From Actinomycetota bacterium (lineage in GTDB: Bacteria; Actinomycetota; Nitriliruptoria; Nitriliruptorales; JAHWKO01), in the NCBI GenBank assembly GCA_019347675.1, contig JAHWKW010000009.1, positions 62,001-126,000 of the forward strand: a stretch of 64,000 bases of DNA. The letters run 5' to 3'. Made by a program: the position numbers and the translations under genes. How positions within the stretch are numbered: position 1 is the first letter of the stretch; every line of letters begins with the position of its first letter. The notes under the pieces were generated by a model, which saw nothing but the letters and a program-made list of their open reading frames with translations, made no database searches and was not told the DNA's origin. Positions 23,302 through 57,857 of this stretch are shown here, piece by piece.

Positions 23302-23540
23302 TCGCGACGGACACGCGCCCCCCGCCCACCACCTGAAGGGACGCGACCTGAAGGGGCGGGCCCGGCCGTCCGGATGAACGACCGGGATGAGGCCGGGATA
23401 AGGTACGACCCGCTCGAGTGGCGTCCGCCGTGGCGCGGACATCGTCAGCCGACCTCGGCGCCGCTGGACCGTTCCGAGCCCTCAGGATCGAGTGTGCATC
23501 ACCACGAGTTCGCCTGGCGGGCCAGAGGCGGTCGTCAGCT

Positions 23541-28149: not shown

Positions 28150-28667
28150 ACCGGATCGGGATGGTCGCGGTGCTCGCAGTGGCGTGGACGGCGTTGTGGC
28201 GCGACGCCAGCCCAGGGACGGTTCTGGGCGGTCTCGCGGTCGGCGCGGCGGTGTCGGTGGCGGCAGGCGACGGAGGGACGCCGGCGTGGCGACCGCTCCT
28301 CCGCCCCGTCGCGACGGTCCGTTTCGTGGTGGCGTTCCTCTGGAACCTCACCACCGCGAGCGTCGCCGTGGCCTGGGACGTGGTCACGCCCGAGGAACGC
28401 GCCCGCGAGGCGATCGTCCTGGTGCCGCTACGGACCGGCTCCGACGCGATCGTCACGACCGTCGCCAACGCGATATCACTGACGCCGGGCACGGTCACGG
28501 TCGACGTCGAACGCGACCCCATCGGCCTCTACATGCACGTGATGCACTTCCGCGACGCCGAGCACGCGCGCGCCCAGGTACGACGCTTGGAGGAGCTGGC
28601 GATCCGGGCGTTCGGCTCGCGCCACGAGGTCGCGGCCCTCGACGGTGAGACCGGAGATGCGCGATGA
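28146..28667 (+). CDS. mrpE: Mrp antiporter subunit E
   Basis: The 173-residue product has two to three N-terminal helices and a cytoplasmic C-terminal domain. The MrpE signature appears as TVVANAISLTPGTVTVDVE-type text (here VTTVANAISLTPGTVTVDVE) followed by YMHVMHF. The ATG overlaps the mrpD stop by 4 bases. Subunit E is needed for assembly and activity of Mrp complexes. Confidence 0.93.
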   Translation: MNRIGMVAVLAVAWTALWRDASPGTVLGGLAVGAAVSVAAGDGGTPAWRPLLRPVATVRFVVAFLWNLTTASVAVAWDVVTPEERAREAIVLVPLRTGSDAIVTTVANAISLTPGTVTVDVERDPIGLYMHVMHFRDAEHARAQVRRLEELAIRAFGSRHEVAALDGETGDAR

Positions 28668-28921
28668 CCGTCGCCATCGTCGTCGCCGCGATCATGGTGT
28701 CCGTCGACGGTGTGCTGTGTGTCGCCCGTCTGCTGCGACGTGGGTCGCTGGCCAACCGCGTCGTCGCGCTCGACACCCTGCTGATCGCGATCGTCCACGG
28801 CATCGCGATCCACGCGGTCGCGACGCGCTCCACTGTCTACTTCGACCTCATGGTGGTGACCGCCCTGCTCGCCTTCGTCGGCACCGTGGCCGTGGCCAGG
28901 TTCATCGAGCACGGGCGGTGA
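28664..28921 (+). CDS. mrpF: Mrp antiporter subunit F
   Basis: The 85-residue, three-helix protein has the conserved RLLRRGSLANRVVALDTL motif, with the Asp in the second membrane segment typical of MrpF. The ATG overlaps the mrpE stop by 4 bases. It is part of the mrp operon. Confidence 0.92.
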   Translation: MTVAIVVAAIMVSVDGVLCVARLLRRGSLANRVVALDTLLIAIVHGIAIHAVATRSTVYFDLMVVTALLAFVGTVAVARFIEHGR

Positions 28922-29280
28922 CTCCGATGATCGACGTCGTCGTCGCGGCCTTGCTGCTGGTCGGTTCCGTCTTCGCGATGCTGGCTGGTGTGGGCCTGCA
29001 CCGCTTCGAGAGCGTCTACGCCCGGATGCACGCGGCCACCAAGCCGGCCACGTTCGGCCTGCTGATCGTCCTGATCGCAGCCGCTATCCGCATCGGAGAA
29101 GCCGGGGACGCCGCGAAGCTGGCCCTTGTCCTGCTGCTGCAGTTCTCCACTGCGCCGATCGCGGCGCACGCGGTGGCCCGTGCCGCCCACCGTGCCGGCG
29201 AGCCCATGGGGTCGACGGCGGTCATGGACGACCTCGCCGAGGACGGGTCCGACCGTGGGCTGGACGGATCGGATGAGTGA
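28918..29280 (+). CDS. mrpG: Mrp antiporter subunit G
   Basis: The 120-residue product has three helices with the PhaG/MrpG pattern GLHRFESVYARMHAATKPATFG. The GTG at 28918 overlaps the mrpF stop (GTGA); an ATG at 28927 is an alternative. The C-terminus is acidic. It is the last gene of the mrp operon and ends 5 bp from the convergent CDF transporter gene. Confidence 0.93.
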   Translation: MTPMIDVVVAALLLVGSVFAMLAGVGLHRFESVYARMHAATKPATFGLLIVLIAAAIRIGEAGDAAKLALVLLLQFSTAPIAAHAVARAAHRAGEPMGSTAVMDDLAEDGSDRGLDGSDE

Positions 29281-42126: not shown

Positions 42127-42513
42127 ATGATCGTGGGGGATGCAGGGCACGGTCATCCCTTCGATCCGGAGAGCGTAGAGCGGGCACGTTCGGCGCGACT
42201 TTCGTCCGCGGAGGTCGACCGCCTGGCTGAGGTGCTGTCGATCGTGGGCGAGCCCGTGCGTGCTCGGATCATCACCGCACTGCTCGCCGTGGAGGAGTTG
42301 TGCGTCGGGGACGTCGCACTAGCGGCAGATGTATCGGAGGATGCGGCGTCGTACGCGCTGAGGGTGCTGCGCACGGCCGGGCTCGTCCAGCGCCGCCGGC
42401 AAGGCAGACTGAACTTCTACCGTTTGGCGGACGACGACACCCAGCCCGCTCTGCGATCAGCTCTGGCTGAGTTGCGACGGCTGGCTGCGGCGACGCCACC
42501 CCCTGCCGGGTGA
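42127..42513 (+). CDS. ArsR/SmtB-family transcriptional regulator
   Basis: The 128-residue winged-helix repressor has an N-terminal helix, the dimer region RLAEVLSIVGEPVRARIITA, a recognition helix in DVSEDAASYALRVLRTAGLV, and the wing RRRQGRLNFYRLADDD. The helix-3 metal site of CadC/ArsR types (ELCVCDL) is read here as ELCVGDV with a single Cys, so the inducer may be another metal site or not a metal. The ATG at 42127 follows GGAGG directly, which is close but workable. Autoregulation through the upstream palindrome is likely. Confidence 0.88.
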   Translation: MIVGDAGHGHPFDPESVERARSARLSSAEVDRLAEVLSIVGEPVRARIITALLAVEELCVGDVALAADVSEDAASYALRVLRTAGLVQRRRQGRLNFYRLADDDTQPALRSALAELRRLAAATPPPAG

Positions 42514-42614: not shown

Positions 42615-43628
42615 TCAGTCCGTGCGCGCCTCAACGGCTTGCGACCATGGCCAGGTCGAGCCGGTCGCGAACGCCAGCAGACGCGCGCGGTGCCCGGCGA
42701 GCTCGTCGAGGCGTGCAGCGAAGCGATCGTCGTCCATTACCGGGAGCCCGATCTGCCGCAGAGGGGTCAGGTCGGGCGGTGGCGGTGTCTGCGAGGCAGG
42801 CTCGTGGAAGGTTGATCCGACCACCGCCAGCAGGTCTCTCACGGCGGTACGGGCAGCGCCGAGCGCTGCGGGATGTGGCCGGATCGTGACGTCGACGGCT
42901 TCGGTGATGATGGTGAGCGCCTCGTCCAGTGCGGCGATGCTGACGGCGAACTCCTGAGCCCGCGACCGGCTGTGGTAGAAGTGCAGGATCGGGTAGCTGA
43001 GGTGGCGTTGCGTCGTGAGCGCGATCTGCTGCGAGAGCGTGAACAGCGGCTGATCCAGGAACCGCAGGCTGGCTCCGTCCCAAGCGCTGGCGACGATGGC
43101 CTGGGCGTCGGTCCCTAGTGCCGAGATGGTGCTGGCCTGCTGCCGGCGTTCGGTCACGGCGGTGACGACCGGGACCAGGTAGGTGATCGCCAGCGTCGTC
43201 AGACCAAGCCCGTTCACCAACGCCAGCGATGTGGCGAGCTGCCACGGCGCGCCGTGCGGCACGTAGTCGCCCAACCCCAGAGTGAACAGCGAATACGCCG
43301 CGAAGTAGGTGCGTGCCCACCAGTCGGCCGGCTGGCCCGTCGCCGTGGACACGACCGCGCTGACGTCCGAGGAGAAGACCAGCGTCCAGCCCATCCACAG
43401 CAGGAACAGCCAGGTGGCCACGGTGGATACGACGATGACCGGGCCCATGAGCACCAGGAGCGGCGAACGAGGTCCCGACGCGATCCGCCGACCCACCCGC
43501 CAGATGCCGCCACCAATCTTCGAGGTGATCGGTCCGGCTGCGGTCGACGCCGCCAGGGTCGTCGACAGGGCGTCCAAGACCGCTAGGGCGACGATCAGTG
43601 TTCCGACGGACAGCATCCATATCTGCAT
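42615..43628 (-). CDS. Channel-like membrane protein, paralogue B, with intact GxGD filter
   Basis: The 337-residue protein has an N-terminal helix (MLSVGTLIVALAVLDALSTT) and two further helices flanking a pore loop, AAYSLFTLGLGDYVPHG, which carries the TxGxGD-like signature of ion_trans_2 K+ channels (TLGLGD in place of TVGYGD). A cytoplasmic helical domain follows (IVASAWDGASLRFLDQPLF, YPILHFYHS). The paralogue at 31923-32936 aligns over its full length. An ATG at 43628 or a GTG at 43631 is the start. It converges with the arsR gene. A cation channel is likely but the ion is inference. Confidence 0.78.
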   Translation of the reverse strand: MQIWMLSVGTLIVALAVLDALSTTLAASTAAGPITSKIGGGIWRVGRRIASGPRSPLLVLMGPVIVVSTVATWLFLLWMGWTLVFSSDVSAVVSTATGQPADWWARTYFAAYSLFTLGLGDYVPHGAPWQLATSLALVNGLGLTTLAITYLVPVVTAVTERRQQASTISALGTDAQAIVASAWDGASLRFLDQPLFTLSQQIALTTQRHLSYPILHFYHSRSRAQEFAVSIAALDEALTIITEAVDVTIRPHPAALGAARTAVRDLLAVVGSTFHEPASQTPPPPDLTPLRQIGLPVMDDDRFAARLDELAGHRARLLAFATGSTWPWSQAVEARTD

Positions 43629-43713
43629 CACCCGTGCCGTGTGTCGTCGGCGACCTCACCGCCTGCGGCGGAGAGTGGCGCTGGTCGCCGATGCTCCTCG
43701 GGTATGACGACGT

Positions 43714-44369: not shown

Positions 44370-44780
44370 GTGAGTCACCACGTTGATGAGATGCTCGGCA
44401 CCCACCCCAGTTCGGCCACGATCGACCGCGACGTGCTGGTCGAAGCGATCGATTCGCTCACATCCTGCGCCGACACCTGCACTGCCTGCGCGGACGCCTG
44501 CCTCGCCGAAGATCAGGTCAGCGCGCTGCGGCGCTGTATCCGCCTCAACCTGGACTGCGCTGACGCGTGCCGGACGACAGCAACAATGCTGCTACGTCAA
44601 ACCGATCCGGACCGCGACGTCGTTCGGGCCGCGGTCGAGGCGTGCGCGCAGGCCTGCCGCTCGTGCGGTGGGGAGTGCGAGCGGCACGCGGAGAAGCATG
44701 AGCACTGCCGCGTGTGCGCGGACGCCTGCCGCCGGTGCGCGGACGCCTGCGAACGAGTCCTGCAGGCGCTCGCCGCCTGA
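44370..44780 (+). CDS. Cysteine-rich four-helix-bundle protein (copper-storage/DUF326-like)
   Basis: The 136-residue soluble protein has about 18 cysteines spaced CxxxC along four predicted helices (SCADTCTACADACLAED, CIRLNLDCADACRTTA, ACAQACRSCGGECERH, CRVCADACRRCADACERV). This is the pattern of DUF326 / Csp proteins that hold many Cu(I) ions inside a helix bundle. There is no Tat or Sec signal, so it would be a cytosolic Csp3-like store. The GTG at 44370 follows AGAGGA. It is divergent from the Cys-protein gene and 58 bp before nuoA. Confidence 0.85.
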   Translation: MSHHVDEMLGTHPSSATIDRDVLVEAIDSLTSCADTCTACADACLAEDQVSALRRCIRLNLDCADACRTTATMLLRQTDPDRDVVRAAVEACAQACRSCGGECERHAEKHEHCRVCADACRRCADACERVLQALAA

Positions 44781-44838: not shown

Positions 44839-45195
44839 GTGCTCACCGCATTCGTAGGCGCCGTCACGGTGGCGGCGTCCGCCGTGGTGGTGCTGTCTGC
44901 GGCCAGCACCGTGCGGACAACGCTGGACCCGACGCTGGCCCACTGGTCGTCGACGTTGCCGGTGCTCGGGGGGCCTCATCCGCCCACACACGCCTGGAAC
45001 CGGTTCCACGCCCGTTACTACCCGATGACGCTGGTCCTGATCGCCTTCGAGATGGAGATGATGTTCATGTACCCGTGGGCGGTCGTCTTCGTCGAGGAGG
45101 GCGCCAAGGCACTGGTCGAGATGGGCGTGTTCCTCGCGGTGCTGTCGCTGGGGGTGCTCTACGCCTGGCGGGAAGGCGCGTTCCGGTGGCAGTGA
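44839..45195 (+). CDS. nuoA: NuoA-like subunit of a membrane-arm-only complex
   Basis: The 118-residue, three-helix protein has the NuoA signature FEMEMMFMYPWAVVF, with the conserved acidic residues in TM2, and a preceding RYYPMTLVLIAF segment. A long first loop (LDPTLAHWSSTLPVLGGPHP) is non-standard. The GTG at 44839 follows GAGGAAG. It opens the nuoA-BD-H-J-K-L-M-N operon and overlaps the next gene by 4 bases. Confidence 0.88.
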   Translation: MLTAFVGAVTVAASAVVVLSAASTVRTTLDPTLAHWSSTLPVLGGPHPPTHAWNRFHARYYPMTLVLIAFEMEMMFMYPWAVVFVEEGAKALVEMGVFLAVLSLGVLYAWREGAFRWQ

Positions 45196-46490
45196 GCGTC
45201 GGGCCGCGCCTGGGGGCGCGGGCGCCGGTCCCGGTGCTGGTGACCGCCGGGGCCAGGGCGAGGGACGCCTTGCTCGGGCTTCGCGCTGCCGATGGCGTCG
45301 ACCCGGTCCACTCGCCGCGGCACGCGACGGTGCTGCTGGTCGGTGGTGCGATCCCCGGCGAGCTGTTCGAGGCGGTCGCGCACGTCCACGATCAGCTGCC
45401 CGAGCCGCGATCGGTGGTGTGGTGGGGCGGAGACGACTCCGGCGCGCTCGGGATCGACGGGGCGGTCATCGTGGCACCCGACGGCGACGTCGTGGGGACG
45501 ATCCGACGGGTTCACGCTGAGCTCGTGATCGGCGAGCGGCCGTCCACCGCGCCCGTGGGCCCCGCCGTCAATCCCGTCGAGTGGCGCGGGGTGGGACCCC
45601 ACGGGCACGGCGGTGAGGGGATGATGGGCGGCCAGCCCTACGGACGGGGGATGGCGATGACCGGCCCCGATCTGCGCGACGGTCTGCAACTCGACCGTGT
45701 CTCGCTGCAGGTCGGCCCGGCGCTGCCGGGGTTCCCGCCCGGTCTGGCTCTGCATGTCGAGCTCCAGGGTGACGTGATCCAGCAGGCCCGACTCGCCGCG
45801 AATCCCTTCGAGTCTGGGGAACGGGTCGGCTCGCCCCTCCGGTCGGTCGGTGACGTGTTCGACGCCGCGCGCCGACGCCCGATCCGCGTCGCCGAGGTCG
45901 AGCTGGCCCGTGCGCGGTACCACCTGCTGCGGTTGGCCGAGGCGCTGCATCTGCACGGGCTGGCCTCGGGCGGCCGTCGGGTGGCGCGCTTGGCGGTGCA
46001 GCTGCAGCCCTCTGACCTGCGGCGGATCGCACGGCTGCGACGCTGGTTGGAGCGGGGCGTTGCCTTGTGGGGGGCCACCGCCGGGGTCGGGGTGCTGGAG
46101 GCTGGCACCGTGGAGGATCTCGGGGTCGGAGGCGTCGTGGCGCGCGCCGCCGGGGTCCCGGTCGACGCCCGCGCCGGGGATCGCACGTACCGGGCGCTCG
46201 GCTTCCAGATGATCACCCGCCAGCGCGGTGATGCCCGGGCGCGGTGGCTGCAGCGCATCGATGAGGCGGTCCAGGCGGTGCAGCTCGTTACCGCCGCTGG
46301 CGACGCGATGGTCGGCCCCGACCACGGCGTGGAGGATCCTCGCGCCGGCACCGGTGTCCTGCTGCGACAGCTGCCGCAGTGGCTGTCGGGGCTCGAATGG
46401 GGAGATGCGGTCACCACGATCGCCAGCCTCGACCTCGACCTGGAAGCGGCCGCCGGCCTCCCACCGACCTCGTCACCGGCGCAGGGCTGA
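45192..46490 (+). CDS. Cysteine-free NuoB/NuoD-like fusion
   Basis: The 432-residue protein starts with a NuoB-like Rossmann half (HATVLLVGGAIPGELFEAVA, then QLPEPRSVVWWGGDD; compare the usual MPEPKWVISMG). It continues as NuoD: YGRGMAMTGPDLRDGLQLDR, HVELQGDVIQQARL, ARARYHLLRLAEALHLHG, GVGGVVARAAGVPVDARAGD. No cysteine occurs anywhere, so the four ligands of cluster N2 are absent, as are the NuoD quinone-site HPxxHG motif and the NuoC part. It can hardly reduce quinone. The start GTG at 45192 overlaps the nuoA stop; a GTG at 45186 is an alternative. It overlaps nuoH by 1 base. Confidence 0.85.
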   Translation: MSVGPRLGARAPVPVLVTAGARARDALLGLRAADGVDPVHSPRHATVLLVGGAIPGELFEAVAHVHDQLPEPRSVVWWGGDDSGALGIDGAVIVAPDGDVVGTIRRVHAELVIGERPSTAPVGPAVNPVEWRGVGPHGHGGEGMMGGQPYGRGMAMTGPDLRDGLQLDRVSLQVGPALPGFPPGLALHVELQGDVIQQARLAANPFESGERVGSPLRSVGDVFDAARRRPIRVAEVELARARYHLLRLAEALHLHGLASGGRRVARLAVQLQPSDLRRIARLRRWLERGVALWGATAGVGVLEAGTVEDLGVGGVVARAAGVPVDARAGDRTYRALGFQMITRQRGDARARWLQRIDEAVQAVQLVTAAGDAMVGPDHGVEDPRAGTGVLLRQLPQWLSGLEWGDAVTTIASLDLDLEAAAGLPPTSSPAQG

Positions 46491-47440
46491 TGGAGGACGT
46501 CACGGCCGCGGGCCCGCTGCTGTCCGTGCTTCTCGTCGGCGGGGTGCTGGCCGCTGGGGTGCTCACGCTCACGCTCCTGGACGCCGCGCTGAGCGCCGCG
46601 ATCGCCGGTGGCGGGTGGTGGCGTTCCGTGGCCGGCGAGACGTTCGGACGGGCCGCGCTCGTGTGGCAGCAGCGCGGCACCATCACGGAACGTCCGGACG
46701 TGACCCTGTGGCTGCTGGCGCCCGGGTTCTACGGTGCGTGCGCCGCGGCCGCGGTCGCGGTCGTGCCCGTCGCCGAGGGGATCGCCGCGGCCGACGTGCG
46801 CACCGGCATCGTCGTGTTCGGAGCGGTGGAGGTCCTCACGATGGTCGCGGTGTACGTGCACGGGTGGTCGGCCAACTCCTACCTGTCGCTGATCGGCGGC
46901 TACCGCTTCCTCGCGGTGGTGTTCAGCACCCTGCTGATCAGCATGTTCGTCCTGATCGGGGCGGCCCTGCCGGCGGAGTCGCTGTCGTTCGGGGCGATCG
47001 TCGACTCGCAGGCAACGTTGTGGAACGTGGTCCGCCAGCCGCTGGGGTTGCCGTTGTGGCTCGCGGTCGGCCTGGCTACGGCCTTCTGGGGGCCTTTCCA
47101 GCTCGCGGACGCCGCCGACCTCGCCGGTGGCACCTCCGCGGAGACCTCCGGTCCCCACCGCCTCGCCTGGGCGGCGGCTCGCCGCGCCATGCTGGTCGCC
47201 TACGCCGTGGCGGGCGCCGCTGTGTTCCTCGGTGGCCACCACGGTCCTTGGCTGCCGGGCTGGCTGTGGATGGCCCTCAAGAGCATCGCCGTGCTGACAC
47301 TGCTGCTGGCGTCGGGCCACCTCGCGGGGCGGTGGCGCGCCGAGCGGGTTGTGACCGTCGCGTGGACCGTGCTGCTTCCCGCGTCGTTCGTGCACCTGGT
47401 CGAGGCCGGCTCGGTCGCGCTGCTGGCCAGCGGCGGCTGA
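46490..47440 (+). CDS. nuoH: NuoH-like subunit
   Basis: The 316-residue protein has about eight helices and aligns with NuoH: FGRAALVWQQRGTI after the first helix, GGYRFLAVVFSTLLIS in the middle, then the usual ECNRTPFDLxEAEAEL region, here rewritten as FWGPFQLADAADLAGGTSAE. Most E-channel glutamates are replaced by Asp, Ala or Gly, as expected if it no longer couples to quinone chemistry. The ATG overlaps the previous stop (TGATG), as does its end with nuoJ. Confidence 0.85.
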   Translation: MEDVTAAGPLLSVLLVGGVLAAGVLTLTLLDAALSAAIAGGGWWRSVAGETFGRAALVWQQRGTITERPDVTLWLLAPGFYGACAAAAVAVVPVAEGIAAADVRTGIVVFGAVEVLTMVAVYVHGWSANSYLSLIGGYRFLAVVFSTLLISMFVLIGAALPAESLSFGAIVDSQATLWNVVRQPLGLPLWLAVGLATAFWGPFQLADAADLAGGTSAETSGPHRLAWAAARRAMLVAYAVAGAAVFLGGHHGPWLPGWLWMALKSIAVLTLLLASGHLAGRWRAERVVTVAWTVLLPASFVHLVEAGSVALLASGG

Positions 47441-48168
47441 TGGGTGCCGACATCGCCTTCTGGGTGTTCGCCGCTGCCGCCGTGTGGTTCGGCTGGCGGG
47501 TGTTCCGGACCGACTCGATGGTCCGGGCGTCGTTCGCGCTGCTGGCCTCCCTGCTGAACGCCGGGGCGATCATGGTGCTGCTCGCCGGCGAGTACCTGGG
47601 CATGGCGGTGTGGTTCATGATGACGGTCGAGATGACCGTCATGGCGATCTTCATGGTCGCGTTCATGATGAACCCGGCCGGCCTCAACCCGATGCAGATG
47701 GTCCACCAGCACCGCACCGCGATCGCCGCCGGCGCCAGCGTCTTCGCGGTCCTGACCGTGGCGATGGTGACCGCCGACCTGCCCGACCGGCCGGTGAGGG
47801 ATGCGGCCGGGGCGATCCGCGCGCTGGGTCACGAGGTGATGGGCTCCTCGATGCTGGTGATGCAGACCGTCGGGGTGACGCTGCTGGCGACCATGATCGG
47901 CGCCACCGTCCTCACGTCCGCCCGGGGCCGCTACGGCCCCTCCGACGAGGGTTCCCTGCCGCCGTCGTTGGACCCCGACGCCCCGCCGGACGCTCCGGTG
48001 CTGCCGACCGGGCACGCGCCAGGATCCGTCGCCGGCGGTGGGCATGGCGGCCACGGAGGCGACGGAGGCGACGGCGGTCACGGCGGTCACGGTGGTCACG
48101 GCGGTCACGGCGGGCACGGCGGGCACGACGGTCACGACGGTCACGACGGTCACGGGGGTCACGGATGA
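47440..48168 (+). CDS. nuoJ: NuoJ-like subunit with His/Gly repeat tail
   Basis: The 242-residue protein has five helices. The TM3 pi-bulge region is seen as EYLGMAVWFMMTVEMTVMAIFM, followed by AFMMNPAGLNPMQMVHQHR. After the last helix a Pro/Asp/Ser linker leads to about 44 residues made of Gly-Gly-His and Asp-Gly-His units with 14 histidines, ending at the stop. Such tails bind Ni, Zn or Cu in other proteins. NuoJ proteins normally end soon after the last helix. Overlaps: TGATG with nuoH, ATGA with nuoK. Confidence 0.88.
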   Translation: MGADIAFWVFAAAAVWFGWRVFRTDSMVRASFALLASLLNAGAIMVLLAGEYLGMAVWFMMTVEMTVMAIFMVAFMMNPAGLNPMQMVHQHRTAIAAGASVFAVLTVAMVTADLPDRPVRDAAGAIRALGHEVMGSSMLVMQTVGVTLLATMIGATVLTSARGRYGPSDEGSLPPSLDPDAPPDAPVLPTGHAPGSVAGGGHGGHGGDGGDGGHGGHGGHGGHGGHGGHDGHDGHDGHGGHG

Positions 48169-48470
48169 CGTTGACCACCGTGCTGATCGTCGCTGCGGCG
48201 CTGGTCGGGATCGGTCTCTACGGGGCCTTGTCGCAGCAGTCGTTCGTGATGATCATGATGGGCTACGAGTTGATCATCAACGGGGTGATGCTGGCTGGTG
48301 TGGGCGGGTGGGCGCTCGCCGCCGGTGGTGAACCCAAAGGGCAGGTGCTGGTCATCGTCGCCATGCTGGTCATGGCGATCGAGGCGGCGATCGGGTTCGC
48401 CGTGGTCGTGAACGTCTACCGGGCACGGCAGGCCGACACCACCGAGGCCGTCCAGACGATGCAACGATGA
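48165..48470 (+). CDS. nuoK: NuoK-like subunit
   Basis: The 101-residue, three-helix protein keeps both functional glutamates of NuoK: MMGYELIINGVML in TM2 and LVMAIEAAIGFAVVV in TM3. The ATG overlaps the nuoJ stop and the end overlaps nuoL (ATGA both times). Confidence 0.92.
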   Translation: MTLTTVLIVAAALVGIGLYGALSQQSFVMIMMGYELIINGVMLAGVGGWALAAGGEPKGQVLVIVAMLVMAIEAAIGFAVVVNVYRARQADTTEAVQTMQR

Positions 48471-50401
48471 CGCTGGCATGGCTGGTCGTGCTCCCGCTGG
48501 TCGCCGGCGCGGCGATCTGGGGGTTGGGCCCCCGCGAGGGCCGCCGGGCCAGGATCGTGTTGGCCGTCGCGTCCGCCGCTGCCCTGATCGCCACGTGCGC
48601 GTTGGCGGTCGTCGCGGGCGCCACGGCTGCCTCGACCAGCTGGGCGTGGGGTGCCGGGCTGCGGCTCGGGCTCGAGGTCCCGCCGCTGGCTGCTGCCGTC
48701 GCGATCACCGTCCCTGGCGTGGCGCTGGCCACGGTCGTCTACGCGGCCGCGCACGAGGCTGCCTGCGGGCTCGCCCGCCAGCTCGGGCTGCTCGTGGTGT
48801 TCACCGGGGCCATGGAGCTGGTGGTGGTCGCTGCCGACCTGCTGACGGTTCTGATCGGATGGGAGCTGGTCGCGGCGGTCTCGTGGGCGCTGATCGGACA
48901 CCAGTGGCGGGACCCGACCCGTCCGGCACGGGCCGCGCACGCGTTCAACGTCACCCGCGCCGGAGCGCTGGGGTTGTTCGTCGCCGCGGGCGCCGCCTTC
49001 GCGGCGACCGGAGGACTGACCTACACCGACCTCGCCGCCGTCGACGGCCCGGCGTTGCATCTGGTCGCCGCAGGGGTGGTCGTGGCTGCGGTGACCAAGT
49101 CGGCGCAGCTGCCGTTCTCCCCGTGGCTGTTCTCCGCCATGGCCGGTCCCACCCCGGTGTCGGCGCTGCTGCACTCGGCCACCATGGTCGCCGCCGGCGC
49201 GTACCTGCTCGTGCGCCTGCAGCCGGTGCTGGGACCGGTCGGCTGGTTCGGGCCGGTCACGCTCACGATCGGGCTGCTCACCGCCCTGGCCGGCGGCGTC
49301 GTCGCGGTCGTGCAACACCGCGCCAAGCATCTGCTCGCCGCCTCGACGTCGGCCCAGTACGGGCTGATGCTGGTCGCCGTCGGCGCCGGCTACCCCGTCG
49401 TCGCCACCGCACACCTGGTGGCGCACGCCGCCTTCAAGGCGCTGCTGTTCCTGGCCGCCGGGGTGGCGATCTCGGCCGTCGGCAGCGAGGTCCTGGGTCG
49501 AATGCGGCTGGGGTCACACCGGCCGGCCACCGCGGTGCTCGCCGCGGCCGGCAGCCTGGCGTTGGCCGCCGTCCCCCCGCTCGGAGCCGCCTGGAGCAAG
49601 GAGCAGATCGTGGCCGCCGCGACGGCTGCGCACCTGCTGGCGGGGATCGTGGCGATCGTCGCCGGCGGCCTGTCTGCGCTGTACATCACCCGCTTCCAGC
49701 TGCTGGCGTTCGGTCCGAGGCGCCACGACGACACCTCGCCACGCGACCGGAGAACTCGGCCCGGTCGGGTGGAGCTGGGCGCGATGGCCGGCCTGGCGCT
49801 GGCCACGATCGGGTTGAGCGCGCTGTGGCTGCCGCCGGTCGAGCACATGCTGCGCCGGATCGGGCAGCTGCCGTCGAGCGAGCCGTGGGAGCTCGTCGCG
49901 TCGCTGAGCGTCGTGGCGGCGGCCGCGTACGCGGCGGTGCTGGGTGACCGCGCCGGCTGGTTGGCGTCGCTGGGCACGACCGGGGCATCCCGCCGAGTGG
50001 GCCAGTGGCTCGGGTTGTCCGAGCTGTCGCGCCGGGCGATCGCCGACCCCGTCCTGCAGTTGGCGGCGGGAACGAGGCGGTTCGACGACCGCGTGGTCGA
50101 CGCCGGCGTGCGCGGGGTCGCACGGCTGGCTTCGGCCACCGCGACGCGCGCCGGCGACGCGGACGTCCGGGTCGTGGATGCCGGCGTGCGCGGCGTCGCC
50201 GCGCTGACGCGGGTTGTGGCCGAACGGTGGACCCGGCTGACAGAGCTCGGTGTCGACGGTGCCGTGCGCGGCGTCGCCGGCGGGTTCTCGTGGAGCGCCC
50301 GGGATCTGCGCCGCCTTCAGACAGGCGCGGCCCACCACTACCTCACGATCGTCACCGTGGGCGCGGCCCTGGCCGTGGCCGTCGCCGCCCTCTGGAGGTA
50401 G
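48467..50401 (+). CDS. nuoL: NuoL-like antiporter subunit with repeated C-terminal helix motif
   Basis: The 644-residue protein has 13-14 helices plus a lateral helix. The channel residues are conserved: Glu in LLTVLIGWELVAAVSWALIG, Lys in AAVTKSAQLPFSPWLFSAM, His in LLHSATMVAAGAYLLVR, and a late Lys in GAAWSKEQIVA. In the lateral-helix region (about residues 540-600) RVVDAGVRGVA appears twice almost exactly and a third time as GVDGAVRGVAG, 20-30 residues apart, forming an internal repeat. The ATG overlaps nuoK. Confidence 0.93.
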   Translation: MTLAWLVVLPLVAGAAIWGLGPREGRRARIVLAVASAAALIATCALAVVAGATAASTSWAWGAGLRLGLEVPPLAAAVAITVPGVALATVVYAAAHEAACGLARQLGLLVVFTGAMELVVVAADLLTVLIGWELVAAVSWALIGHQWRDPTRPARAAHAFNVTRAGALGLFVAAGAAFAATGGLTYTDLAAVDGPALHLVAAGVVVAAVTKSAQLPFSPWLFSAMAGPTPVSALLHSATMVAAGAYLLVRLQPVLGPVGWFGPVTLTIGLLTALAGGVVAVVQHRAKHLLAASTSAQYGLMLVAVGAGYPVVATAHLVAHAAFKALLFLAAGVAISAVGSEVLGRMRLGSHRPATAVLAAAGSLALAAVPPLGAAWSKEQIVAAATAAHLLAGIVAIVAGGLSALYITRFQLLAFGPRRHDDTSPRDRRTRPGRVELGAMAGLALATIGLSALWLPPVEHMLRRIGQLPSSEPWELVASLSVVAAAAYAAVLGDRAGWLASLGTTGASRRVGQWLGLSELSRRAIADPVLQLAAGTRRFDDRVVDAGVRGVARLASATATRAGDADVRVVDAGVRGVAALTRVVAERWTRLTELGVDGAVRGVAGGFSWSARDLRRLQTGAAHHYLTIVTVGAALAVAVAALWR

Positions 50402-50403
50402 CC

Positions 50404-51885
50404 GTGCTGACTGCCGCCATCCTCGTCCCGCTCGCCGGCGCCGTCGCGCTGCTGGTGCCGCGCTGGTCCCAACGCTCGGCGCGGCTCTTCGCGGTCGCGG
50501 TCGCAGCCGTCCCGCTGTTGCTGCTGGTGGCGGCGTGGTTGCGGTTCGACATCGGCAGCGACGCGCTGTTCCAGCTCGTCGAGGAGGTCGAGTGGATCCC
50601 CACGCTGGGGGTCGCCTACCGCGTCGGGGTGGACGGCATCGCGCTCGCCGTCGCGGCAACCTCGGCGCTGCTGTTCACCGCAGCTGTGGCCTACCCGGTC
50701 GATACCCAAGGTCGTCCGCGCGGCTACTACGCGTGGCTGCTGTTCCTCGAGGCGGTCTCCCTCGGGCTGTTCCTGTCCCTCGACCTGCTGGTCTTCTACG
50801 TCTTCTTCGACCTGTCGCTGGTCGGGATGTACTTCCTGATCGCCCGCTGGGGCCATGAAGGCGCACGGGCTGCGGCGCTGAAGTTCTTCCTCTACACCCT
50901 GGCCGGATCGCTGGTCATGCTGCTCGCGATCCTGGGATTGGTGCTCGCCACCGACCCGATCACCTTCTCGATGCCGGAGCTGATCGCTCGCCAGCCACTT
51001 GCCGGCCAGGGGACCCGCGCCGGGATGGTCCTCCTCGGGCTGTTGTTCGGATTGGGGGTCAAGACCCCGGTTGTGCCGCTGCACACCTGGCTGCCCCCCG
51101 CCCACGTCGACGCCCCGGCGCCCGCATCGGCCATCCTGGCAGGAGTGCTGCTGAAGATGGGCACGTTCGGGATGATCCGCATCCCGTTCTCCATGATGCG
51201 CGACACGTTCAGCCGGTACGCGTTGGCGCTGGCGATCGTCGCGGTGGTCAGCATCGTCTACGGCGCGCTCGTCGCGCTCGGCCAGGAGCACCTCAAGCGG
51301 CGCATCGCATACACGTCGGTCAACCACATGGGCTACACGGTGCTCGGCATCGCCGCCGCCGGGGGGCTGCTGTCGGGCAGCGAGCAGGCCCGCCAGCTTG
51401 CGCTCACCGGCGCGACCGTCGAGATGGTCGCCCACGGGCTGATCACCGGCGCGCTGTTCCTGATCACCGGGTCGTTCTGGCAGCGCGGCGGCACGTTCGA
51501 CCTCGACGCCTATGGTGGTCTGGCCGGCCGCACCCGTGGGCTGACCGGCGCCACGGTGCTGGCCGCGTTCGCCAGCCTCGGCCTGCCCGGGCTGGCCGGT
51601 TTCGTCGCCGAGTTCCAGATCTTCGTCGGGACCTTCGCCGTATACCCCGTCCTGGCCGGCATCGGGCTGCTCGGCGTGCTGATCACCGCTGCGCTGTTCC
51701 TGCAGATGCTCCAGCGGCTGTTCTTCGGCGACCTCCCCGAACGCTGGTCGGCGTTCCCTGACCTGCGGCCGTCCGAGGCCGCGACCCTCGGCGTGATGCT
51801 GGCCTTCGTGGTCGCGATCGGCGTCTACCCCCGCTGGCTGCTCGACGTCGTCCACGCCGCCAGCGGCGTGCTGATCGGCAGCTGA
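50404..51885 (+). CDS. nuoM: NuoM-like antiporter subunit, TM5 Glu replaced by Asp
   Basis: The 493-residue protein has about 14 helices. The TM7 Lys is kept (FGLGVKTPVVPLHTWLPPAH) and so is the TM8 Lys (GVLLKMGTFGMIRI). The TM5 motif reads VFYVFFDLSLVGMYFLIARW, so the Glu that is near-invariant in NuoM (WExMLVPMYFLI) is Asp. NuoM-specific GxLAGRTRGLTGA text and EFQIFVGTF are present. The GTG at 50404 lies 2 bp after nuoL. Confidence 0.93.
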   Translation: MLTAAILVPLAGAVALLVPRWSQRSARLFAVAVAAVPLLLLVAAWLRFDIGSDALFQLVEEVEWIPTLGVAYRVGVDGIALAVAATSALLFTAAVAYPVDTQGRPRGYYAWLLFLEAVSLGLFLSLDLLVFYVFFDLSLVGMYFLIARWGHEGARAAALKFFLYTLAGSLVMLLAILGLVLATDPITFSMPELIARQPLAGQGTRAGMVLLGLLFGLGVKTPVVPLHTWLPPAHVDAPAPASAILAGVLLKMGTFGMIRIPFSMMRDTFSRYALALAIVAVVSIVYGALVALGQEHLKRRIAYTSVNHMGYTVLGIAAAGGLLSGSEQARQLALTGATVEMVAHGLITGALFLITGSFWQRGGTFDLDAYGGLAGRTRGLTGATVLAAFASLGLPGLAGFVAEFQIFVGTFAVYPVLAGIGLLGVLITAALFLQMLQRLFFGDLPERWSAFPDLRPSEAATLGVMLAFVVAIGVYPRWLLDVVHAASGVLIGS

Positions 51886-51887
51886 CC

Positions 51888-53282
51888 GTGCCGATCGGTG
51901 ACCTGGCCCCCCAGATCACCCTGCTCGTCGGCGCAGCAGCGGCTGTCATCGTCTCTCTGTTCACCGGCCATCACCGCCAGTGGCTGGCAGCGCCGCTGGC
52001 GCTGGCCGCCCTCACCGTCGCCGCGGCGGCGCAGCTGGCGGTGCGGCGCGACTCGGACGTCCTGACATTCGACGGGCAGTGGGCCCTCGACGGCCTCACC
52101 ACCTGGGGTGCCGTCATCATCGTCGTGACCACGGCCCTCACCGTGGGTCTGTCACCACGCTGGATGCGCACCGACCGCCGCCACGGCGAGTACTACGCCA
52201 TGCTGCTGCTCGCAGCGCTCGGCGCGCAGGTCATGGCGGGGGCCGCCGACGTGATGGAGCTCGTCGTCGGGATCCTGCTGTCGTCGGTCACCGGGTACGT
52301 GCTGGCCTCCTACCACCGGCGTTCTCCGCTGTCGGCCGAAGCGGGCGTCAAGTTCTTCTTGATCGGCGGGCTGACCAACTCGCTCCTGCTGGTCGGGGCC
52401 GTGCTGCTGTTCACGCTCAGCGGCACCACCCTCTACCGCGACATCGCCGCCCCGGTCGCGACCCCCGACGCGAGCCTGCTGGTCATCGCCGTCGCCCTGA
52501 TCGTGATCGGGATCGCGTTCGAGCTCGGCGCCGTCCCCGCCCACGCCTGGGTCCCAGACGTCTCCCAGGGCGCCCCCGCCCCCGCCGCCGCGTTCCTCAC
52601 CGTCGCGCCGAAGATCGGTGCGCTGATCGCGCTCGCCCGGCTCGTGCAGGTCCTGCCCTCAGACGGTGTCGGCTGGCGCCCGCTGGTGGCCGTCGTCGCC
52701 GCCGCGACGATGACGCTCGGCAACCTCGCCGCGTTCTGGCAGGACGACGTCCGCCGGCTCCTCGGCTGGTCGAGCGTGTCCCAGTCCGGCTACGGGATCA
52801 TGGCAGCCGTCGCCGTCGGCGCCTCCCCACATGCGACGCCGGCGCTGCTGACCTTCGCCCTCGCCTACGCGCTGGCGAACCTCGCCGCCTTCGGGGTGGT
52901 CGTCGCCCTCCGCGGGCGCACCGACATCAGCGACTACACCGGCCTGGCGCGTTCGTGCCCGTGGCTGACCGCTGCGCTCACCCTGGCCATGCTGTCGCTC
53001 GTCGGCATCCCGCCCCTGATCGGCTTCACCGCCAAGCTGCAGCTGTTCACCGCCACGATCGACGCCGGCTACGGCTGGCTCGCCGTTCTCGCCGTCGTCA
53101 ACACCGTCGCATCCCTCTTCTACTACCTGCGGGTCATCGGCCCCGCCTACCTCGGGGAGCGCGGCGAACGCCCGGTCACGCTGGGGCCGTGGTCGGCTGC
53201 CACCGTGGCCGCTGCCACGATCGGCCTCGTGGCGACCGGCGTGCTCGCCGGCCCGACCGTCGGCGCCTTCACCGGCGGTTGA
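51888..53282 (+). CDS. nuoN: NuoN-like antiporter subunit, TM7 Lys replaced by Glu
   Basis: The 464-residue protein has about 13 helices. TM5 Glu is present (VMELVVGILLSSVTGYVL). The TM7 motif, GFKLxxVPFHxWTPDVYxGAP in other NuoN, reads IAFELGAVPAHAWVPDVSQG, so the pumping Lys is Glu and the His after PF is retained one position along. The TM8 Lys is kept (LTVAPKIGALIALAR). The GTG at 51888 lies 2 bp after nuoM. The operon's last nuo gene; 120 bp precede the cupredoxin. Confidence 0.92.
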   Translation: MPIGDLAPQITLLVGAAAAVIVSLFTGHHRQWLAAPLALAALTVAAAAQLAVRRDSDVLTFDGQWALDGLTTWGAVIIVVTTALTVGLSPRWMRTDRRHGEYYAMLLLAALGAQVMAGAADVMELVVGILLSSVTGYVLASYHRRSPLSAEAGVKFFLIGGLTNSLLLVGAVLLFTLSGTTLYRDIAAPVATPDASLLVIAVALIVIGIAFELGAVPAHAWVPDVSQGAPAPAAAFLTVAPKIGALIALARLVQVLPSDGVGWRPLVAVVAAATMTLGNLAAFWQDDVRRLLGWSSVSQSGYGIMAAVAVGASPHATPALLTFALAYALANLAAFGVVVALRGRTDISDYTGLARSCPWLTAALTLAMLSLVGIPPLIGFTAKLQLFTATIDAGYGWLAVLAVVNTVASLFYYLRVIGPAYLGERGERPVTLGPWSAATVAAATIGLVATGVLAGPTVGAFTGG

Positions 53283-53402
53283 CGCGCCGCACGAACGGCG
53301 TCGATGGTCGTCCGCGCTCCACCACGTCTGTCGCGGTCGCGGCATCACCGCCCAGTGCGCCGACCACGTAGGGTGGGTCCCCCGGGTTCCGGAGGGCCGT
53401 CG

Positions 53403-53825
53403 TTGCGCCGCTCACTTGTCGCCATCCTCGCCGTGCTGGCCGCTGCGCTCGTCGCCGGCTGCCGCCCCGCCCCGCCCGAGGATCCCTTCGGGGCGCAGGG
53501 GCCCGAGGGCATCGAACCGACCGCTGGCGACCCGGCGCAGACCCCGGACGTGGACGTCACGGTGCGCGTCATCGAGCCCGCCCGGTTCGAACCCCGGGAG
53601 ACCACCGCCGGGGCGGGCCAGGTGACGATCCGACTGGAGAACAACACCGGCGACGAGCACACCTTCACGATCGAGGGGTTCGAGGAGCAGTTGGACCTGC
53701 GCGCTGCGCCCGGTGAGGCGGCGCAGGGCACCGTCGCACTGACGCCCGGCGAGTACACCTACTACTGCCATCTGTCCGGCCACCGTCAGGCGGGCGAGGA
53801 CGGGGTCCTGGTGGTCGAGGAATAG
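53403..53825 (+). CDS. Cupredoxin-domain lipoprotein
   Basis: The 140-residue protein starts at a TTG with GGAGG 7 nt upstream. It has a lipoprotein signal (RRSLVAILAVLAAALVAGC with the lipobox Cys at 20), an acidic/Pro linker, then a cupredoxin domain with type-1 copper ligands: His in NNTGDEHTFTIEGF and Cys-His in GEYTYYCHLSGHRQAG; the axial Met is not obvious. It would be anchored outside the membrane and carry electrons or copper. Downstream of the nuo-like operon in the same direction, 120 bp apart. Confidence 0.85.
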   Translation: MRRSLVAILAVLAAALVAGCRPAPPEDPFGAQGPEGIEPTAGDPAQTPDVDVTVRVIEPARFEPRETTAGAGQVTIRLENNTGDEHTFTIEGFEEQLDLRAAPGEAAQGTVALTPGEYTYYCHLSGHRQAGEDGVLVVEE

Positions 53826-54768: not shown

Positions 54769-57324
54769 TCACGTCGCGGAGTTGCGAGCATGCCTCGTCA
54801 CCCGCCAGGCCTGCACCACCAGGAGCGGGATCGGTGCGAGGAGCGCCGCAACCAACCACGCGGCGGGCGGGAGCACGGTCAGCCCGAGCAGGTTGCGCAA
54901 CGTCGGCACGCCGAGCGCCGCGGCCTCCAACGCGATGGTCGCCGCCAGCGCCGCCCACAGCCACACGTTCCGCCCCGCACCCGCGAAGCCCAGACCGTGC
55001 TCGCTGCGTGCGTTGAACACCGCCAGCACCTGAGCGGCGGTCAACGTCACGAACGTCAGTGTCTGTGCGCCGGCCACGTCCAGCCGCAGACCCCGCAGTC
55101 CCACGGCGTACCCGGCCAGACCGACCGCAGCGACCAGCAGCCCGTGGGCCACGAGCCTGCGGACGACGTCACGCGTCATCACCGGCTCGCCAGGCGGCCG
55201 CGGCGGCTGCTGCATCACCTCCGCACCGCGCGGCTCGAGGGCCAGCGCGAACGACGGGAAAACGTCGATGATGAGGTTGTTCCACAGGATCATCAGGCCC
55301 ACGAGCGGCGGATCGAGGCCGGCCAGCAGGGCGGCGGACACGACGGTGACCTCGGCCACGTGCCACGAGAACAGGAACTGGCCGAAGCGTCGGATGTTGC
55401 TGAAGATCCTCCGCCCCTCCTCCACGGCCGACTCGATCGTGTTGAAGTCGTCGTCGGTCAACACCATGTCGGACGCCTCGTGAGCGACGTCGGTCCCCGA
55501 CCCCATCGACACCCCGACGTCGGCCTGACTCAGCGCCGGAGCGTCGTTGACGCCGTCCCCGGTGACCGCCACGACCTCGCCCCGCTCCTGCAGCGCCCGG
55601 ATGATGCGCAGCTTGTGTTCGGCGTCGACCCGGGCGAAGACATCCACCTCGCCGACGAGCGCGACCAGGCTGTGGTCGTCGGTGTCGTCGAGGTCCGGCC
55701 CGGTGATCACCTCGTGGTCGGCCAGGTGCAGCTGGTCGGCGAGCGCGCGCGCCATCGCAGGCTGGTCGCCGGTGATCATCACGACGCGGATGCCGGCACG
55801 GTGGAAGACCTTCACCGTCTCGACCGCAGCGTCGCGGGGCGGGTCGCGCAGACCGACCACACCGAGCACGTCGAGGCCTTCGAACAGCGCGTTGTCGGGA
55901 GCGTCCCCGTCGGGAGCACCGCGGCGGGCGAACGCCAGCGTCCGCATCGCGTCCTCCGCCATGCGCTGGGCGGCGTCGGCGAGCTGGCGGTGCTGAGCAG
56001 GATCGAGGATGGCCTCCGGGGCGCCCTTGACGTGCACCGTCCCGTCGTTGACGGTCGCCATCCGCATCGTCTCGGAGTCGAACGGGACCTCGCGCTGGCG
56101 CGGCCGGTCGTCGCGCAGACGGCGCCAGTCGAGGTCCGCCGAGGTCGCGCCGGCCAGCAGCGCCACTTCGGTGGGGTCACCAACCGGATCCCCGTCGGGA
56201 TCGATGTCGGCGTCGTTGCAGAGCACCGCCGTCTCCCACAGCCGCCGTGCCTCGGCGTCGTCGGCCGTGATGACCTCCGCGACGTCCATCCGGTTGACCG
56301 TCAACGTCCCGGTCTTGTCGGAGCACACCACGGTGGTGGACCCCAGCGTCTCGACTGCCGGCAGGTTGCGGACCAGCGCGTGCCGGCGCGCCATCCGTCG
56401 CATCCCCACGGCAAGGGTGAGGGTCGCGACCGCTGGCAGGCCCTCGGGGACCACCGCGATGGCGAGTGCGATGGCGACCTCGGCGACCTCCGTGGGGGGA
56501 CGCCCCCGCGCTATTCCGATCCCGGCCAGCGCGCCGGCCGCGATCACCACGATCAGCGCCAGGCGACGACTGAGCCGTGCCAGGCCCGCCTGCAGGGGAA
56601 CGCGTGGCTGATCGGCGGCCTCGGCGAGCTCCGCGACCCGCCCCATGTGCGTCGCTCGGCCGGTCGCGACCACGACACCGCGCCCGCGCCCGGCCCGCGC
56701 GGTCGTGGCCATGAACAGCATGCAGGTGCGCTCAGCCAGCGGCGCGTCCGCGGCCACGGCGGCCACCCCCTTGGTGACCGGTTGCGACTCACCGGTGATC
56801 GCCGACTCGTCGACGGTGAGGTCCTCGGTTTCCAGGAGGCGGACGTCGGCCGGAACCCGCTCACCGGCCTCCACCGCGACGATGTCGCCAGGGACGAGCC
56901 CGCGCGCGTCGATCTCGTCGCGGCGGTCGTCGCGTTCCACCTCGGCGATCGTGCGCATCATCTTGCGCAACGACGCGATCGACCGCGCCGCCTGGTACTC
57001 GGTCAGGAACCCCACGACGGTGTTGGCCACCAGCACGACCCCGATCGCGGCGGCCTCCTCGACCTGGCCGACTGCCAGGCCGACGAGTCCCGCGGCGGCC
57101 AGCAGGACGACCACAGCGCTCTTGAGTTGGGCCCACAGGATCCGCCACCACTGCCGGGTCCGCCGGGGAGCGACGGTGTTGGGGCCTACCGCGGCGCGGC
57201 GGCGCTCGACCTCCTCAGAGTTCAGACCGCGTTCGGGATCGACGCTGAGCTCACCGGCGATCTCCTCGCCGTCCCGCGCGTGCGGTTCCGTCACGGACGG
57301 AACGGATCCCCCGGCGTCGGACAT
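54769..57324 (-). CDS. P2-type cation-transporting ATPase
   Basis: The 851-residue pump has the actuator loop TGES (LTVDESAITGESQPV), the TM4 ion motif AIAVVPEGLPAVATL, the phosphorylation site VVCSDKTGTLTVNRMD, the P-domain hinge TGDGVNDAPALSQADVG and a C-terminal four-helix block. The VPEGL motif and overall layout fit the SERCA/PMR1/MgtA-like P2 group (Ca2+, Mn2+, Mg2+ or Na+/K+), not a copper P1B pump, since there is no CPC. The ATG at 57324 starts a protein with a typical cytosolic N-terminus. A longer frame upstream is Arg-rich and non-conserved. Confidence 0.92.
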   Translation of the reverse strand: MSDAGGSVPSVTEPHARDGEEIAGELSVDPERGLNSEEVERRRAAVGPNTVAPRRTRQWWRILWAQLKSAVVVLLAAAGLVGLAVGQVEEAAAIGVVLVANTVVGFLTEYQAARSIASLRKMMRTIAEVERDDRRDEIDARGLVPGDIVAVEAGERVPADVRLLETEDLTVDESAITGESQPVTKGVAAVAADAPLAERTCMLFMATTARAGRGRGVVVATGRATHMGRVAELAEAADQPRVPLQAGLARLSRRLALIVVIAAGALAGIGIARGRPPTEVAEVAIALAIAVVPEGLPAVATLTLAVGMRRMARRHALVRNLPAVETLGSTTVVCSDKTGTLTVNRMDVAEVITADDAEARRLWETAVLCNDADIDPDGDPVGDPTEVALLAGATSADLDWRRLRDDRPRQREVPFDSETMRMATVNDGTVHVKGAPEAILDPAQHRQLADAAQRMAEDAMRTLAFARRGAPDGDAPDNALFEGLDVLGVVGLRDPPRDAAVETVKVFHRAGIRVVMITGDQPAMARALADQLHLADHEVITGPDLDDTDDHSLVALVGEVDVFARVDAEHKLRIIRALQERGEVVAVTGDGVNDAPALSQADVGVSMGSGTDVAHEASDMVLTDDDFNTIESAVEEGRRIFSNIRRFGQFLFSWHVAEVTVVSAALLAGLDPPLVGLMILWNNLIIDVFPSFALALEPRGAEVMQQPPRPPGEPVMTRDVVRRLVAHGLLVAAVGLAGYAVGLRGLRLDVAGAQTLTFVTLTAAQVLAVFNARSEHGLGFAGAGRNVWLWAALAATIALEAAALGVPTLRNLLGLTVLPPAAWLVAALLAPIPLLVVQAWRVTRHARNSAT

Positions 57325-57389
57325 GGGCCGACGATACGCCCGGTGTTGCGGCCAGCCGTCGGGGCGCCGCTGTACCCCGGGACGGTCGC

Positions 57390-57857
57390 TCAGTCGTCTT
57401 CGTCCTCGTCCTCGTCCTTCTTCTCGTCCTTCTTCTCGCCCTCGTCTTGGTCCTTGCCCCGGTCCTTGCCCCGGTTCTTGCCTTCGCCACGGTCCTCGGC
57501 GCGGTCGTCGGCGCGGTCGTCGTCCTCGTCGGTCTCGGTGGGCGAGGGGGGCGGGGGCGGAGGCGGCGCCGGCTCCGGGAGCAGCGCCAGGTTCACCTCG
57601 ACCTGTTCGGCCGCCGCCAGGATGTCGTCTGCCTTCTCGGCGCTGATGCGCCCGTCCGCCCGGGCCTCCTCGACGATGGCGCGGATCTCGGCCAACCCCT
57701 GCCGCGCCGCCGCCCGGTCCTGGGCGACAGCCGCCTGACGCACCTCGGCGACTCGCTGCTGGAGGTCCTGGGAGAGCGGTTCGGGGAGACCTCCGCCACC
57801 GCACCCGGTCACGACCACGGCGGCCGCGACGGCCACGGCAACCAAGCGTCCGGTCAT
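57390..57857 (-). CDS. Lipoprotein with highly charged tail, coupled to the kinase gene
   Basis: The 155-residue protein has a lipoprotein signal (GRLVAVAVAAAVVVTGC), a helical region (LQQRVAEVRQAAVAQDRAAA through AAAEQVEVNLALL), a short polyproline hinge and a 45-residue tail of only Asp, Glu, Lys, Arg and Gly. The ATG overlaps the kinase stop by 4 bases. It may be a substrate, ligand sensor or wall partner of the kinase; no family is recognised. Confidence 0.8.
   Translation of the reverse strand: MTGRLVAVAVAAAVVVTGCGGGGLPEPLSQDLQQRVAEVRQAAVAQDRAAARQGLAEIRAIVEEARADGRISAEKADDILAAAEQVEVNLALLPEPAPPPPPPPSPTETDEDDDRADDRAEDRGEGKNRGKDRGKDQDEGEKKDEKKDEDEDEDD

Follow-up and report, generated by a model that had tools for sequence, protein, structure and literature searches.

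A 64,000-nucleotide stretch of an Actinomycetota genome (GCA_019347675.1, contig JAHWKW010000009.1, positions 62,001 to 126,000; the window) contains the operon nuoA-[B/D]-H-J-K-L-M-N (44839-53282), which encodes a relative of respiratory complex I whose redox site is gone. Invariant methionines confined to NuoA, NuoJ and NuoK, together with the copper genes around the operon, point to a role in the handling of Cu(I)/Ag(I). As far as sequence comparison can indicate, there is about an even chance that the operon encodes a redox-free complex I paralogue that would use the proton gradient to move Cu(I)/Ag(I) through a methionine-lined E-channel, probably outward. The sequence-only reading of this DNA had proposed an ion translocator without redox input, or one driven by an unknown partner. 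The redox-free membrane arm stands, and gene context and methionine pattern narrow the open part of that proposal to Cu(I)/Ag(I) handling.

A membrane arm with a cofactor-free NuoB-NuoD fusion

The sequence-only reading had described an operon without nuoC, E, F, G and I, and all eight genes were found at these positions, on the + strand. Each of the seven membrane-arm subunits is assigned as its Nuo subunit by Pfam and NCBIfam, and all seven lie above the Pfam cut-off: NuoA (44839-45195, 118 residues; PF00507, E = 3.6e-22), NuoH (46487-47440, 317 residues; PF00146, E = 2.5e-34), NuoJ (47437-48168, 243 residues; PF00499, E = 2.8e-13), NuoK (48165-48470, 101 residues; PF00420, E = 2e-15), NuoL (48467-50401, 644 residues; PF00361, E = 5e-43), NuoM (50398-51885, 495 residues; TIGR01972, E = 8e-140, above cut-off) and NuoN (51888-53282, 464 residues; TIGR01770, E = 2.6e-98). 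The fusion gene lies between nuoA and nuoH (45192-46490, 432 residues). The stop and start codons of adjacent genes overlap by four bases throughout, except at the nuoM/nuoN junction, where two bases separate the genes.

The fusion is readable as NuoB plus NuoD, as first proposed from the letters alone, and profiles, an AlphaFold2 model and Foldseek agree on this. Residues 286-375 match Complex1_49kDa/NuoD (E = 5e-13, Pfam/NCBIfam) and residues 39-79 match NuoB (E = 2e-4, NCBIfam). A profile built from 57 relatives matched NuoD chains in the PDB over residues 271-362 (E = 1.8e-13) and NuoB chains over residues 40-82 (E = 8e-9). The AlphaFold2 model of the fusion has a predicted local distance difference test (pLDDT) score of 90.7 and a predicted template modeling score of 0.90, and a Foldseek search with the whole model returned NuoD chains (top E = 1e-9) as well as subunits of membrane-bound hydrogenase (MBH) and formate hydrogenlyase (FHL). 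When the N-terminal 130 residues were modeled alone (pLDDT 87.6), Foldseek returned NuoB chains or the homologous hydrogenase/FHL subunit (E = 2e-4). A fusion lacking any Nuo fold is therefore rejected by the profile and Foldseek matches to both subunits. The NuoB-like N-terminal half corresponds to about 45192-45566 and the NuoD-like half to about 45657-46454; in the Roseobacter group the NuoD part is even shorter, and the whole fusion has 302-350 residues.

The fusion in the window has no cysteine, as the sequence-only reading had noted. This holds for relatives in a weaker form: 13 of 57 fusions are entirely without cysteine and the others carry scattered ones, with no conserved cysteine column across the 57 sequences (best column, 12/57). 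By alignment, the four NuoB cysteines that ligate the N2 cluster are absent, and the NuoD quinone-site motif HPxxHG, already reported as missing, is replaced by GPxxPxxPPG. The region of the HRGxEK loop is not present in the fusion alignment. In canonical NuoD, the quinone head is held by these histidines and this loop. These results confirm a fusion of a NuoB half with a NuoD half that has lost both the N2 cluster and the quinone site.

The most conserved stretch of the family is without counterpart in the NuoB and NuoD matches. It runs from W131 to D168 (45582-45695) and reads WxGxGxxGxGGxGMxGGxPYGRPMAxxxxDxRDGLxLD, with the letters marking invariant columns in 57 sequences. Its first part is modeled as a low-confidence loop (pLDDT about 52 at residues 131-150), as would be expected if the segment needs partner subunits.

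Genes for redox subunits adjacent to the operon would have changed this picture. None of NuoB, C, D, E, F, G or I is encoded elsewhere in the window, and none is conserved in the flanks of 85 loci carrying the operon, where a search for the electron-input subunits C, E, F, G and I yielded only a weak ferredoxin-type NuoI match (L067) and one operon at locus L109. The latter, in an Actinomycetes metagenome-assembled genome (MAG), is a canonical nuoA-B-C-D-H operon (3-2974) with no E, F or G between D and H, running divergently from the family operon; we take their proximity as chance. The genome that contains the window also encodes a separate complex I on contig C4, with matches for NuoA, B, C/D, F, H, J, K, M and N, and further NuoF matches beyond it. 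A second, partial nuo set (A, B, D, H, L) lies beside that complex I on the same contig (G000:C4, about 7600-16200). Because both are present, the window operon is an extra in its genome.

Invariant methionines in NuoA, NuoJ and NuoK

We compared methionine content between the family and canonical subunits from related genomes plus E. coli. Mean values were 8.3 vs 2.7% for NuoA, 8.4 vs 2.5% for NuoJ and 8.7 vs 4.1% for NuoK (p = 1e-11 to 1e-13), and there was no rise over canonical subunits in NuoH, L, M and N. The excess is not favored by base composition because most family genomes are high-GC and the codon is ATG. A position was counted as family-only if methionine occupied it in 95% or more of the family and rarely in canonical subunits; the canonical frequency was zero at all positions counted. 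There are 4 in NuoA, 12 in NuoJ, 3 in NuoK, 2 in NuoM and none in NuoH, NuoL or NuoN, or 19 in A/J/K vs 2 in H/L/M/N.

In NuoA the family-only methionines 63, 72, 74 and 77 and the histidines 51 and 57 lie at 44989-45069, and M95 (98%) is added to them further along. Both histidines are invariant and fall in a stretch that aligns with the loop facing the old quinone cavity. NuoK contributes positions 29, 31 and 70. In NuoJ the methionines occupy the third transmembrane helix (TM3) and the loop after it (M61-H90, 47617-47706, + strand; MMTVEMTVMAIFMVAFMMNPAGLNPMQMVH), where Met61, 62, 66, 69, 73, 77, 78, 86 and 88 and His90 are each present in at least 95% of 80 relatives, while the methionine columns of the TM3 segment contain 0% methionine in 20 canonical NuoJ sequences. 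The methionine that replaces E. coli NuoJ Tyr59 is one of the family-only set. NuoJ ends in a His/Gly-rich tail (48034-48165, + strand), and 56 of 80 relatives have at least four histidines in the last 60 residues vs 0 of 19 canonical sequences.

NuoA, NuoJ and NuoK correspond to ND3, ND6 and ND4L, which are described as part of the E-channel, and ND6 TM3 is reported to rotate, gating the link between the quinone cavity and the antiporter subunits (PMC7613608). Most of the new methionines sit in the NuoJ counterpart of this helix. This location also suits a metal-gated valve, in which Cu(I) bound at the methionine gate would open or shut proton or cation flow through NuoL/M/N and adjust pH or membrane potential in metal stress, copper itself not being moved (gate location from PMC7613608). 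Such a role would fit the ion-channel genes that lie close to the operon in the window (PF07885), in Acuticoccus and in Martelella, but these genes do not recur in other loci (tblastn), and the methionines are not limited to one gate site but also occur in NuoA, in NuoK and in the loop that follows NuoJ TM3. We consider a valve an unlikely account.

Residues of the proton channels

The residues that carry protons in E. coli complex I are mostly kept. In NuoL, at least 97% of relatives have E144, K229, H254, K305, H338 and K399. In NuoM, K234, K265, H348 and E407 are kept and E144 (TM5) is replaced by Asp; in NuoN, K217 (66/71), K247 and K395 are kept in the family, E133 (TM5) is replaced by Leu and the window sequence has Glu at K217. 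NuoK E36 and E72 and NuoA E81 are almost invariant, at NuoA D79 the family has either Glu or Asp, and the NuoK channel glutamates of the window (E35, E73) are kept. The acidic cluster of NuoH is kept mostly as Asp, and its quinone-side residues are drifting. Since the proton residues of L, M, N, K and A are mostly kept, the ion-translocating part appears to be under selection.

An ordinary antiporter of the Mrp type (Na+ or K+/proton) that is simply carried along with copper islands would also have kept channels. NuoL/M/N belong to the Mrp antiporter superfamily and many of the hosts are halophiles, but a plain antiporter leaves unexplained the 19 invariant methionines confined to A/J/K, the occurrence in Actinomycetota and Chloroflexota MAGs and the enrichment of copper genes; we regard it as very unlikely.

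Copper genes in the neighborhood of the operon

In the window, 58 bases separate nuoA from an upstream gene for a Cys-rich DUF326 four-helix-bundle protein of the copper-binding type (44370-44780, + strand; PF03860, E = 2.3e-15). On the other side, the gene that starts 21 bases after nuoN encodes a cupredoxin that carries a signal peptide and the lipobox VAGC (53304-53825, + strand; PF13473, E = 9e-8). DUF326 proteins adjoin the operon in other loci too. The P-type ATPase of the window (54769-57804) has Cation_ATPase_N/C domains of the Ca2+ type and is not copper-type. We grouped neighboring genes by cross-locus BLAST clusters and named them from motifs and annotated plasmid records. The neighbors across loci include multicopper oxidase, CopB, copper P-type ATPase, CueR, DUF411, CusA, DUF326 and cupredoxin, as well as cytochromes c and a YHS protein directly upstream of the operon; the link of the YHS family to copper is less certain. 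Annotated plasmid copper islands hold the operon in Halomonas KO116, Acuticoccus, Martelella and Roseivivax.

For a quantitative comparison, a set of 20 reference proteins was searched against the 10-kb flanks of the 85 loci and against controls from the same genomes, 36 stretches no longer than 20 kb. The set combined copper proteins of E. coli, others annotated on the plasmids and a few taken from the loci themselves. Copper families occur within 10 kb in 59/85 loci vs 1/36 controls (Fisher, 1e-12), and in 44/85 vs 1/36 when YHS is left out (p = 7e-8). E. coli references alone gave 28 loci vs 1 control, and this is the unbiased count because some of the other references came from the loci themselves. 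After relatives were merged at 60% identity, 26 of 32 clusters retained the copper context (5e-12). By gene context, the family probably belongs to copper resistance.

The same neighbors bear on two other uses of copper. Multicopper oxidases and cytochromes c in a copper context, with the proton residues kept, would fit a copper-redox-driven pump, in which Cu(I) oxidation (or Cu(II) reduction) at the fusion or the E-channel drives proton export through L/M/N and saves energy in copper stress. However, the family has no cluster-binding motif, conserved cysteine or quinone site, and no redox partner gene is conserved beside the operon. Methionine-lined sites favor Cu(I) over Cu(II), which suits transfer over redox cycling. 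Such a pump is thus improbable in our judgment. A copper/silver importer, or a supplier of Cu(I) to adjoining periplasmic cuproproteins, would use the same Met/His ladder and could serve the cupredoxins, multicopper oxidases and YHS/DUF326 proteins nearby, but the neighborhoods are resistance islands (CueR, Cu-ATPase, CusA, CopB), where import under excess would be harmful, and we hold import to be highly unlikely.

Ergothioneine genes follow the operon in Halomonadaceae and neighbors (egtB in 17/85 loci, egtD in 13/85; loci L035, L059, L060, L063, L069, L070, L073, L075, L076, L078-L081, L090, L092, L099 and L102), and ergothioneine may act as a copper-binding thione. Upstream of the window operon are an ArsR-family regulator (42133-42513, + strand) and the PF07885 ion channel (42615-43631, - strand); small ion-channel genes adjoin the operon on the Acuticoccus and Martelella plasmids too. 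An ion channel or an APC permease as a conserved partner was rejected, as tblastn found no recurrence in other loci. Further upstream, the window contains an operon for an Mrp-type multi-subunit Na+/H+ antiporter (23418-29280; MrpA 23418-26288, MrpD 26683-28149 and small subunits, named from sequence, with NuoL/M matches), which is a second complex I-related ion translocator in the window.

Family distribution and phylogeny

When GTDB was scanned with one genome for each species, 132 relatives were confirmed, so the operon is not a one-off, and 80 loci were fetched. The hosts are Actinomycetota, Chloroflexota, Gemmatimonadota, Gammaproteobacteria (Halomonas, Salinicola, Chromohalobacter, Salinisphaera, Rhodanobacter and Thiohalocapsa), Alphaproteobacteria of the Roseobacter group and one MAG labeled Cyanobacteria, some of these taxon labels resting on MAG binning. 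The order A-BD-H-J-K-L-M-N occurs in every locus long enough to tell (about 85 examined), a recurrence far above chance. In a NuoM tree, 38 family members form one clade apart from 17 canonical NuoM sequences, one of which is a mis-extracted NuoL fragment (Shimodaira-Hasegawa-like approximate likelihood ratio test, 99).

The view of a maintained operon rather than a ruin is borne out by the same order and invariant residues across phyla, and a decaying operon is rejected. The NuoJ signature NPAGLNPMxMVHQ, searched as a DNA pattern, was exact in 12 of 397 Actinomycetota genomes, while the reversed pattern gave none; its matches coincide with operon loci in the genomes examined. At this frequency of the family signature, a partial nuo operon as a common actinomycete trait is rejected, and so is phage carriage, as the signature is absent from viral contigs.

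Individual loci depart from the common form. On Martelella mediterranea pMM259 (L133, 12681-15248), in a copper island on a conjugative plasmid, the operon stops after nuoA and part of the fusion and is followed by an ISL3-family transposase. On Vreelandella sulfidaeris pBAA-803-A (L131, 14001-15279) the fusion is matched as three pieces in two places with short annotated open reading frames, reflecting either a degraded gene or sequencing errors. At L118 (G060:C38, 17385-19956) a second NuoM/NuoN-like pair follows the operon, which suggests a partial tandem copy.

A proposed proton-driven soft-metal transporter

A proton-driven soft-metal transporter is the simplest account of these observations, since the redox site is gone, the gate carries Cu(I)-type ligands and the proton channels are kept. 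We infer that copper is the substrate, that the complex transports rather than senses it, that transport is coupled to protons and that it is directed outward. In the proposed mechanism, the NuoB-NuoD fusion, without N2 or quinone, would cap the complex on the cytosolic side and load Cu(I)/Ag(I) into what used to be the quinone cavity. The metal would then run along a methionine ladder in NuoA, NuoJ (TM3) and NuoK, the old E-channel, and its passage through the gate would be coupled to protons flowing through the retained NuoL/M/N channels, opposite in direction to respiratory complex I. The proton gradient would thus drive the metal, most likely outward, in the window's genome to the external cupredoxin. 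Export is favored because of the resistance context and because the His/Met sites of the fusion loop, the NuoA loop and the NuoJ loop and tail are presumably on the cytosolic side.

Complex I uses about 0.8 eV of redox energy to export four protons. By our estimate, the reverse process would yield 0.7-0.8 eV from four protons that enter at about 0.18-0.2 V, approximately what it would cost to move one Cu(I) against the membrane potential and up a gradient of ten or so orders of magnitude. The wider proposal, that complex I was rebuilt once and then spread across phyla as a proton-gradient-driven pump for Cu(I)/Ag(I), with the quinone cavity as metal-loading site and the E-channel as methionine-lined metal path, seems to us slightly short of an even bet.

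Several observations weigh against metal export. Copper genes are lacking within 10 kb in 26/85 loci, several of which have short flanks, and about nine loci without nearby copper genes carry ergothioneine genes instead. The NuoJ TM3 methionines do not lie on one helix face beyond chance (P = 0.14), and an amphipathic methionine face was rejected as not significant. The TM5 glutamate of NuoN is lost throughout and a lysine is replaced by glutamate in the window, so proton coupling may be partial. The copper islands already hold ATP-driven and resistance-nodulation-division exporters, and the gain from another pump is unclear. The direction rests on the general topology of complex I and on the resistance context.

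If export is correct, the family would represent a new copper-resistance mechanism in halophiles, marine bacteria and uncultured Actinomycetota and Chloroflexota. It would also be, to our knowledge, the first member of the complex I superfamily to combine a full H-J-K-L-M-N arm with metal movement and no redox chemistry. How proton channels far from the quinone cavity of complex I are coupled to what happens there has been an open problem for a long time. A natural complex without the electron part, whose NuoJ TM3 gate is rewritten with methionines, offers a direct test of whether metal passing the gate drives proton flow or is driven by it. Annotated plasmid records label the operon genes 'NADH-quinone oxidoreductase', which misleads metabolic reconstruction.

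Comparison with known systems

The sequence-only reading knew of no described operon with this fusion, and in the open-access literature searched we likewise found no family described that unites a redox-free complex I membrane arm with a NuoB-NuoD fusion. That search yielded a single report of copper-linked nuo-like genes (PMC8233155). In Marinobacter atlanticus CP1, a copper-resistance operon is reported to be interrupted by a cassette of seven 'complex I-like' genes, nuoADHJKL and one for a hypothetical protein. The cassette is reported to be co-expressed with the copper genes, and the authors suggest that copper redox reactions supply it with energy (Eddie et al. 2021, PMC8233155). Unlike the window operon, the cassette is reported to have no M and N, and the parts of the account available to us recognize no family, B/D fusion, cofactor loss or methionine pattern (PMC8233155). 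The 'hypothetical protein' is probably the fusion and the cassette probably a member of the family, in which case its co-expression with copper genes supports the copper assignment.

Among systems without redox chemistry, the Mrp Na+/H+ antiporter has NuoL/M/N-like subunits as the window operon does. It is not known to have a NuoA, B, D or H homologue arranged as in this operon. The Mbh/FHL membrane-bound, energy-converting hydrogenases share a NuoB/NuoD/NuoH-like core, but they carry NiFe and iron-sulfur centers, whereas the window operon is without metal-ligand cysteines. The 11-subunit complex I-like enzymes keep NuoB with N2, NuoC, NuoD and NuoI. These enzymes (Fpo, Fd-NDH and the Desulfitobacterium type; PMC11238625) resemble the window operon in having no NADH module (E, F, G) and differ from it in that the operon has a fused, cluster-free B/D and no C or I.

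Respiratory complex I (NDH-1, NuoA-N) shares with the operon homologous A, B, D, H, J, K, L, M and N subunits in canonical order, the proton-channel residues of L/M, NuoK E36/E72 and the acidic pair of NuoA. In contrast to complex I, the operon lacks C, E, F, G and I, has B and D fused and A/J/K rich in methionine, and is without the cluster cysteines and the quinone-site histidine motif. By its cluster, quinone site and electron-input subunits, the operon thus falls outside respiratory complex I, whereas homology of the membrane arm and of NuoB/NuoD holds.

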